This document shows, in pieces, positions 32,334 through 54,269 of a stretch of 64,000 nucleotides of DNA. The position numbers and the translations under genes are program-made. Under the pieces are notes generated by a model that saw nothing but the letters and a program-made list of their open reading frames with translations, was not told the DNA's origin and ran no database searches. Source of the DNA: Leucobacter tardus (GTDB lineage Bacteria > Actinomycetota > Actinomycetes > Actinomycetales > Microbacteriaceae); the NCBI RefSeq assembly GCF_017583045.1, contig NZ_JAGFBF010000005.1, positions 434,001 through 498,000 on the forward strand, given 5' to 3'. How positions within the stretch are numbered: the first letter of the stretch is position 1; every line of letters starts with the position of its first letter.

Positions 32334-34782
<2,449 letters not shown>

Positions 34783-34796
34783 TCAGCCAACACGAA

Positions 34797-34839
34797 CGCC
34801 GCGACGAGGGAGGCCTGGGAACTAGGTCTCGTCGCGGCG
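34797..34839 (-). promoter_or_regulatory. leuA leader hairpin (attenuator-like)
   Basis: Arms 34797-34808 and 34828-34839 are perfect 12-base complements (CGCCGCGACGAG on the plus strand) around a 19-base loop. On the minus-strand RNA the upstream arm overlaps the last sense codons of the leader peptide (Arg-Arg-Asp-Glu), and its stop codon lies in the loop, so a ribosome reading or leaving the peptide would disturb the fold. No U-tract follows. Structure seen directly; regulatory role inferred from known actinobacterial leu leaders. Confidence 0.75.
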
Positions 34840-34866
34840 GCTAAGAAGAAGCGAGCCGAACAGCAT
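34822..34866 (-). CDS. leuL: leuA leader peptide (MLFGSLLLSRRDET)
   Basis: A 14-codon reading frame, ATG 34866 to TAG 34824-34822, with four Leu residues including three consecutive CTT codons. CTT is a rare Leu codon in such high-GC genomes, which would sharpen sensitivity to charged tRNA-Leu. The promoter -10 ends 6 bases before the ATG, so the mRNA appears leaderless. Leu-codon leader peptides upstream of leuA have been predicted across actinobacteria by comparative analysis. Coding status rests on these signals, not on length. Confidence 0.75.
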   Translation of the reverse strand: MLFGSLLLSRRDET

Positions 34867-34872
34867 GCCGCC

Positions 34873-34878
34873 ACTATA
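34873..34878 (-). promoter_or_regulatory. -10 element of the leuA operon
   Basis: TATAGT on the minus strand, 11 bases beyond the era stop codon; 6 bases separate it from the leader-peptide ATG, so transcription should start at or next to that codon. The -35 region would fall within the end of era and has no obvious TTGACA-like hexamer. Confidence 0.6.
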
Positions 34879-34888
34879 GCAGCCGACC

Positions 34889-35797
34889 TCAGAACCCGAG
34901 ACGGCCGAGGAACTTCGGATCCCGCTGCCACTCCTTCAGCACCTTCACCCGCAGCGACAGGTAGACGCGCCGGTCCAGCAGCGCCTCGATCTCGTGTCTC
35001 GCGCGCTCGCCCACCGATTTCAAGCGGGATCCGCCCTTCCCGATCACGATCCCCTTCTGGCTATCGCGCTCGACGTAGAGGCTCGCGTACAGTTCGAGCA
35101 GTCCGGGCGCGTCGCCGTCGGGTTCGCGTTCGACGCGATCATCGACGGTCACGGCGAGGGAATGCGGCAGCTCGTCGCGCACACCGTCGAGCGCGGCCTC
35201 GCGAATGAGCTCGGCGATGCGGTCGTCCTCGCTCTCGTCCGTCACCTGCGCGTCCTCGTAGAGCTGGGGCGACTCCGGCATCAGGTCGAGCAGCACGTCG
35301 GAGAGCACGTCCAACTGCTCCTCGGCCACCGAGGAGAGCGGAACCACCGCGTCCCACTCCCTCAGCGTTCCGAGCCGCGCGAGCTGATCGACGATCTCGG
35401 TGCGACTCGCACGGTCCGTCTTGGTGAGCACGGCGACCTTCTTCGCTCTCGGGAAGTCGTCGAGGCGCTCGTTGATGAACCGGTCGCCCGGCCCGAGCTT
35501 CTCGTCGGCCGGCACGCAGAATCCGATCACGTCGACGTCGCCGAGGATCGACTCGACGAGCGCGTTCAGCCGTTCGCCGAGCAGCGTGCGCGGACGGTGC
35601 ACCCCAGGGGTGTCGACGATGATGAGCTGGCCGTCCGGTCGATGCATGATGCCCCGGATCGCCCGACGGGTCGTCTGCGGCTTCGGGCTCGTGATGGCTA
35701 CTTTCTCGCCGACGAGCGCGTTCGTCAGTGTCGACTTGCCGACGTTCGGGCGCCCGACGAAGGTGACGAAGCCGGCGCGGTACGGTGTGTCGCTCAC
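34889..35797 (-). CDS. era: GTPase Era
   Basis: GTP-binding protein that binds the 3-prime end of 16S rRNA during 30S assembly. 302 residues from GTG 35797, which overlaps the corC stop by 4 bases. G1 is GRPNVGKSTLTNAL near residue 15, G3 VDTPGVHRP, G4 TKTD; the C-terminal KH domain has GIVIGKGGSRLKSVGERARHEI. The protein ends KFLGRLGF. Confidence 0.96.
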   Translation of the reverse strand: MSDTPYRAGFVTFVGRPNVGKSTLTNALVGEKVAITSPKPQTTRRAIRGIMHRPDGQLIIVDTPGVHRPRTLLGERLNALVESILGDVDVIGFCVPADEKLGPGDRFINERLDDFPRAKKVAVLTKTDRASRTEIVDQLARLGTLREWDAVVPLSSVAEEQLDVLSDVLLDLMPESPQLYEDAQVTDESEDDRIAELIREAALDGVRDELPHSLAVTVDDRVEREPDGDAPGLLELYASLYVERDSQKGIVIGKGGSRLKSVGERARHEIEALLDRRVYLSLRVKVLKEWQRDPKFLGRLGF

Positions 35798-53043: not shown

Positions 53044-53078
53044 GCGAACGGGCGCGGACGGCATCCGCGCCCGTTCGC
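53044..53078. terminator. Bidirectional hairpin terminator between gdh and dinB
   Basis: A perfect 15-bp stem: GCGAACGGGCGCGGA (53044-53058) and its complement (53064-53078) around a 5-base loop. It starts 6 bases after the gdh stop and ends 7 bases before the stop of the convergent DinB gene. No U-tract on either strand. Confidence 0.8.
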
Positions 53079-54216: not shown

Positions 54217-54252
54217 AAAAAAGGGGCCGGATCGATGACTCGATCCGGCCCC
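54217..54252 (-). terminator. Intrinsic terminator for csbD
   Basis: Perfect 13-bp stem (54223-54235 with 54240-54252) and a 4-base loop, followed on the minus strand by six U residues (A-run 54217-54222). It is the one classical U-tract terminator I found in the window. On the plus strand it can also stop the acetyltransferase transcript. Confidence 0.9.
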
Positions 54253-54269
54253 TCATCGGAGAAGAGTGC

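Follow-up and report, generated by a model that had tools for sequence, protein, structure and literature searches.

A putative leaderless leucine leader and its RNA fold upstream of leuA in Leucobacter tardus: a probable translational attenuator of the LEU element type

The window considered here is a stretch of 64,000 nucleotides from the actinobacterium Leucobacter tardus, a member of the family Microbacteriaceae. On its minus strand lies leuA, the gene for 2-isopropylmalate synthase, with its ATG at 34746, and upstream of it the era gene ends with a stop at 34889. The intergenic region of 142 nt between them contains a short leader reading frame, a hairpin and a purine-rich region in front of leuA. 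The features of the locus, in the direction of transcription, are as follows.

34873..34878, minus strand: -10 box TATAGT, separated by 6 nt from the leader ATG, a spacing kept in relatives
34822..34866, minus strand: leader reading frame (leuL) encoding MLFGSLLLSRRDET and a stop, putatively leaderless; the frame is seen in the sequence, with similar leaders in relatives
34846..34855, minus strand: 5' strand of the base stem (a), CTCGCTTCTT, whose complement lies in the purine-rich ribosome-binding region of leuA; from the fold and the swap tests
34843..34851, minus strand: three CTT leucine codons, the putative sensing codons; from the sequence, the last being CTT in 65/65 named relatives
34828..34839, minus strand: hairpin 5' arm (b), CGCCGCGACGAG; from the sequence and family covariation
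34812..34815, minus strand: loop side (c) of the pseudoknot, GGCC, which in this species has no more than 4 bp; from family-wide covariation
34797..34808, minus strand: hairpin 3' arm (b'), CTCGTCGCGGCG; from the sequence
34783..34788, minus strand: segment c', GGCTGA, partner of the loop GGCC (pseudoknot) or of TTAGCC after the leucine codons (alternative stem)
34750..34769, minus strand: purine-rich leuA ribosome-binding region (a'), GAGAAGCGAGAAGAACGAGT, mostly paired with the leader in the predicted fold
32959..34746, minus strand: leuA, 2-isopropylmalate synthase, by NCBIfam TIGR00970 and Pfam

The leader opens with an ATG at 34866-34864 and closes with TAG. CTT CTT CTT are its codons 6-8, and codon 2 is an additional leucine codon (CTG). 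The hairpin is perfect over 12 bp, with the last codons of the leader inside the 5' arm and the leader stop in the loop; when the 142-nt intergenic region was shuffled 2000 times, a 12-bp inverted repeat with a loop of 4-40 arose only once. The initial annotation had recognized TATAGT followed by a leucine-rich leader with three CTT codons, overlapping a perfect 12-bp hairpin whose upstream arm includes the final codons, and all of this is found again on the minus strand. Its remark that CTT is rare in the genome also holds nearby, since CTT accounts for 1 of 215 leucine codons in six neighbouring genes. It had likewise stated that no U-tract follows the hairpin; none is present, and a terminator scan finds no terminator. 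The terminator hairpin with U-tract that defines a classical transcription attenuator of the trp/leu type is thus absent from the window, and the word attenuator, if taken as intrinsic transcription termination, is not supported. A scan for sigma-70-type promoters gave nothing at its threshold, so that the -10 box, with its conserved spacing, is the basis of the promoter call. A scan of the window with Rfam 15 returned 0 matches at the gathering score. Elsewhere in the window, at 53044-53078 and 54222-54253, there are two further perfect inverted repeats, each exceeding 12 bp and having a short loop.

The arrangement recurs throughout the relatives. Leader, hairpin and conserved downstream segment are present in 29 of 29 leuA upstream regions extracted from Leucobacter, the window included, and in 19 of the 20 that represent other families of the order, the element being absent from one locus (L049). 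A covariance model built for the element matches the coding strand of 76 of the 80 named leuA loci from actinobacteria, and the presence of the element in these loci and in all 29 Leucobacter regions shows that the leader-hairpin arrangement is not due to chance. In genome scans, the family gave a match in 177 of its 179 good genomes and the order in 165 of its 188 good ones, while a scan of the phylum with the first model and strict filters gave at least 32 of 247. Two or more matches are carried by about 129 of the 192 family genomes with a match, by a hand count of the table in which the extra matches were partly examined. A subgroup of Leucobacter (L006, L007, L019, L020, L028-L031) has a leader longer by four codons (RDESSTSN) and a correspondingly extended hairpin loop.

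Among the 29 Leucobacter regions, the end of era lies upstream only in the window (L002) and in L003; the element therefore travels with leuA while the upstream gene changes. This bears on the reading of the hairpin as the terminator of era with an incidental leader frame. Its position, about 50-90 nt past the era stop, is what such a terminator would have, yet the lack of a U-tract, the persistence of the element next to other upstream sequences in relatives and its recurrence before leuC make this explanation highly improbable.

The start of the leader is conserved as well. A TANNNT box 6-7 nt before an in-frame start codon, with a reading frame running into the hairpin, is found in 65 of the 76 named elements, against 1.35 (maximum 5) in a shuffled null for this spacing. 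In another set of relatives, all members have a spacing of 5-9 nt, and 6-7 nt predominates. As 65 of 76 elements keep the -10 box 6-7 nt ahead, a leaderless start appears to be conserved, and to judge from this spacing the leader would begin at +1.

The codons of these leaders point to translation. The frame of the hairpin relative to the leader is identical in 65 of 65 leaders. Codon -4 is leucine in 65 of 65 and codon -3 in 64 of 65, and the third base is free, CTC, CTT, CTG, CTA or TTG being used at these two positions. That leucine is kept while the third base varies favours translation of the leader. The last leucine codon (codon -2) is CTT in 65 of 65 leaders, a fixation which argues for an added RNA-level or codon-specific role. 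CTT makes up 45% of the leucine codons in the leaders and 4% in the same leuA genes. The idea that CTT was chosen merely for its rarity was not adopted; the codon also fits pairing with the purine-rich ribosome-binding region, and the two causes are not separated.

The RNA structure was assessed across the family by covariation and by swap tests, in which each segment is paired with its own partner or with those of other elements. In the hairpin, 97.1% of cells are paired, six pairs show two-sided changes and none of 500 shuffles reaches the covariation score; the alignment used was fitted to the model, and an independent MAFFT alignment agrees. The pseudoknot, formed between the loop and the segment downstream of the hairpin, is better with its own than with swapped partners (0/20000, z -5.2, with one pair per genus and ungapped helices), and the same is true of the elements at genes other than leuA (0/20000, z -6.9). 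Examples of such pairs are AACCGACC/GGUCGGUU, GUCAGCCA/UGGCUGAC and CGACCGGC/GCCGGUCG. When energies of whole duplexes were used, the pseudoknot swap test gave 2143/20000, a value blurred by gapped duplexes and shared consensus. The run of leucine codons pairs better with its own pre-start region than with swapped ones in two tests (16/20000 and 84/20000). As controls, swaps of the loop with the pre-start region were not significant, and swaps of the leucine codons with c' were (60/20000). Because of the latter result, an alternative pairing must exist and the picture of a single structure is too simple; the result is in line with the alternative hairpin that the 2005 paper describes (PMC1262725). 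The swap tests were made without full correction for relatedness, and the base stem is poor in some members, e.g., Kocuria.

In the window itself, the minimum-energy fold of the element has -48.7 kcal/mol (z -2.73). It contains a 10-bp base stem, CTCGCTTCTT:GAGAAGCGAG, with additional pairs as far as 34750, so that the purine-rich region is mostly paired. The alternative stem TTAGCC:GGCTGA is formed inside the base stem. The pseudoknot is short in this species, a 4-bp match of GGCC with GGCU; it is the longer pseudoknot of the family that is significant in the swap tests. A base stem between the leucine codons and the Shine-Dalgarno region of leuA is thus present both in the fold of the window and in the two family swap tests.

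An element with these properties is already known. The LEU element upstream of actinobacterial leuA was described by Seliverstov et al. in 2005 (PMC1262725), and the element of the window is a LEU element, because its leucine-run leader, Shine-Dalgarno base stem and alternative hairpin, with the pseudoknot of the family, match that description; the two also share the absence of a terminator and the position before leuA. The mechanism was left open in 2005, and a leader-peptide mechanism was doubted there; mutations in the leuA leader of Streptomyces coelicolor were reported to have effects inconsistent with classical attenuation (PMC1262725). In Streptomyces lividans, the peptide LeuL1, MRFGLLLLSCRGEGL, is encoded before leuA by a leaderless frame lacking a typical terminator (PMC8079986). 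It shares these features with the leader of the window and differs in the ends of the peptide; leuL1 was reported as an attenuator whose mechanism is unsettled there (PMC8079986). The exact LeuL1 peptide is encoded at two loci found with model R1 (L071 and L076). In Mycobacterium abscessus, the uORF of leuA is ribosome-protected (PMC4974804). The ilvB leader attenuators of Actinobacteria likewise place branched-chain codons in a short leader before a gene of branched-chain biosynthesis (PMC1262725, PMC13236596); they possess an intrinsic terminator with a U-tract, whereas the element of the window has none. In Mycobacterium smegmatis, cysteine leaders act by translational attenuation (Canestrari et al. 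2020, as cited in PMC13236596). The mycobacterial poly-cysteine uORFs share with the LEU element a leaderless short frame, a codon run for the amino acid of their own pathway and translational attenuation; they concern cysteine and other genes, and the likeness lies in these described features.

LEU elements are not restricted to leuA. Leifsonia xyli is presumably a member of the same family as the organism of the window. It belonged to the genome set of 2005, in which LEU elements were reported only before leuA and one transposase gene (PMC1262725). In the genome of the window, model R1 finds a second element at contig C5:114992-115076 (1501-1585 in locus L053), with its first base 126 nt before leuC, which is identified by NCBIfam TIGR00170. 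Its leader is MRVRQLLPCRDGGE, with TAAACT seven bases ahead of the start, and its pseudoknot comprises 8 bp (AACCGACC/GGTCGGTT). In its minimum-energy fold, the loop/downstream pairing replaces the hairpin, and this fold is weakly better than shuffles (z -1.70). Among the genomes examined, an element also lies before leuC in 11 further Leucobacter genomes and in 12 from the rest of the family. Paralogues of leuA also carry the element in relatives (L088, L089, L095, L123, L126, L128 and L130). In seven Leucobacter genomes (L233, L235, L237, L239, L241, L243 and L249), an element with an LLL leader precedes a gene for an MFS transporter, which on this sequence context is a candidate leucine-related transporter, and a different MFS gene is preceded by an element in one genome. 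The transporter of these relatives is not found in the genome of the window, where the best hit is a partial match of 32% (E 4.8e-4). No paper on LEU elements at leuC or transporters was found in the part of the literature covered.

Some elements carry codons for valine or isoleucine, variants found in the present survey. At three loci from other families (L093, L094 and L096), a LEU-like element precedes a tiny reading frame of about 20-32 codons upstream of leuB, and the leaders, MRHALILRCRGGA, MARQLVILSSRGEFR and MRKQLVVIACRGGAS, contain isoleucine or valine codons. Two of these tiny frames have ARQALQESMD in common, and in two cases a terminator-like hairpin lies between the tiny frame and leuB. 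Two further LEU-like elements, likewise from other families (L150, 498-582, plus strand; L151, 6064-6147, minus strand), stand before genes for small stand-alone proteins resembling the allosteric domain of LeuA, which match Pfam PF08502 with E 2.4e-6 and a weak 0.053; their leaders, MSRMLVVRRRSGV and MSWQKLLVTRRSGV, have leucine/valine codons. Weak model matches at L097, L098 and L246, having no leucine gene and no convincing leader, were taken as false.

These variants are relevant to the proposal of Seliverstov et al. (2005) that the folded element is the binding site of a regulatory protein, for which orthologues of Mycobacterium leprae ML1624 were suggested, translation of the leader being secondary. 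Their argument was based on the S. coelicolor mutants (PMC1262725), and strong conservation at the RNA level, with hairpin and pseudoknot and invariant CTT and GCCGCG stretches, is in keeping with it. If translation were irrelevant, however, one would not expect leucine to be kept at two codons through synonymous third-base changes, nor valine and isoleucine to appear among the leucine codons before the leuB-linked frames and the LeuA-domain-like genes, nor the leaderless start geometry to be conserved. A protein ligand as the main regulator is therefore considered doubtful.

The reading preferred here is that the LEU element works by leucine-responsive translational attenuation, to which a probability of roughly two in three is given. 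The transcript would start at the leader ATG, and a 70S ribosome would read the leader at once. With ample charged Leu-tRNA, the ribosome would pass the leucine codons and come off when it reached the stop codon in the loop. This would let the RNA fold into the hairpin with the pseudoknot or the alternative stem, and in this folded state the leucine-codon run would pair with the ribosome-binding region of leuA and so hold its translation down. If charged Leu-tRNA were scarce, the ribosome would stall on the CTT run, covering the codons, which form the base-stem strand, together with the hairpin's 5' arm; the ribosome-binding region would stay open and leuA would be translated. The comparison of sequences supports the leaderless geometry, the leader frame, the hairpin, the pseudoknot and the base pairing between the codons and the ribosome-binding region. 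From these we infer the stalling, the direction of the response and an output at translation rather than transcription; leucine would then be the probable signal controlling leuA. Translational attenuation is preferred because it unites leaderless translation, conserved leucine (or valine/isoleucine) codons, the absence of an intrinsic terminator and the codon/ribosome-binding-region pairing. Since the same nucleotides serve both as codons and as anti-Shine-Dalgarno strand, mutations in the codons would also disturb repression, and this overlap may explain why the S. coelicolor mutants did not fit classical attenuation (PMC1262725).

The ribosome might instead control Rho-dependent or other non-intrinsic termination: without stalling, the untranslated RNA behind the leader would be exposed to Rho, and stalling would refold the RNA and prevent termination. 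The hairpin without a U-tract would suit such a scheme, Rho has been raised for cys leaders (PMC1262725), and if the start of leuA were masked, this alone would help Rho to act on the untranslated mRNA. It does not require, however, that the leucine codons pair preferentially with their own pre-start region, and it is regarded as unlikely, if less so than a protein-binding site. Of the two options left by the initial annotation, non-canonical termination or translational control, the latter is better supported, and the comparative data favour its broader suggestion that a leaderless leucine leader may control leuA without an intrinsic terminator.

The element at leuA has been known since 2005; what is added is that many genomes support the pseudoknot, the leaderless start and the base pairing to the ribosome-binding region. 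Four points go beyond the initial annotation: the leucine-codon/ribosome-binding-region pairing, the pseudoknot, the identification as a LEU element and, in front of leuC, a second copy in the same genome. The family, which was not returned by the Rfam scan, now has a covariance model, and for an MFS family of Leucobacter a candidate role in leucine-related transport can be proposed. It seems somewhat more probable than its opposite that LEU elements constitute a family of codon-programmed translational-attenuation RNAs in Actinobacteria, sharing a single fold in which the sensing codons are the anti-Shine-Dalgarno strand, with leuA, its paralogues, leuC, the candidate leucine-related MFS gene and stand-alone genes resembling the LeuA regulatory domain as targets, and valine/isoleucine codons at some others. 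With leuC and other genes joining leuA as its neighbours, the element outlines a testable leucine regulon.
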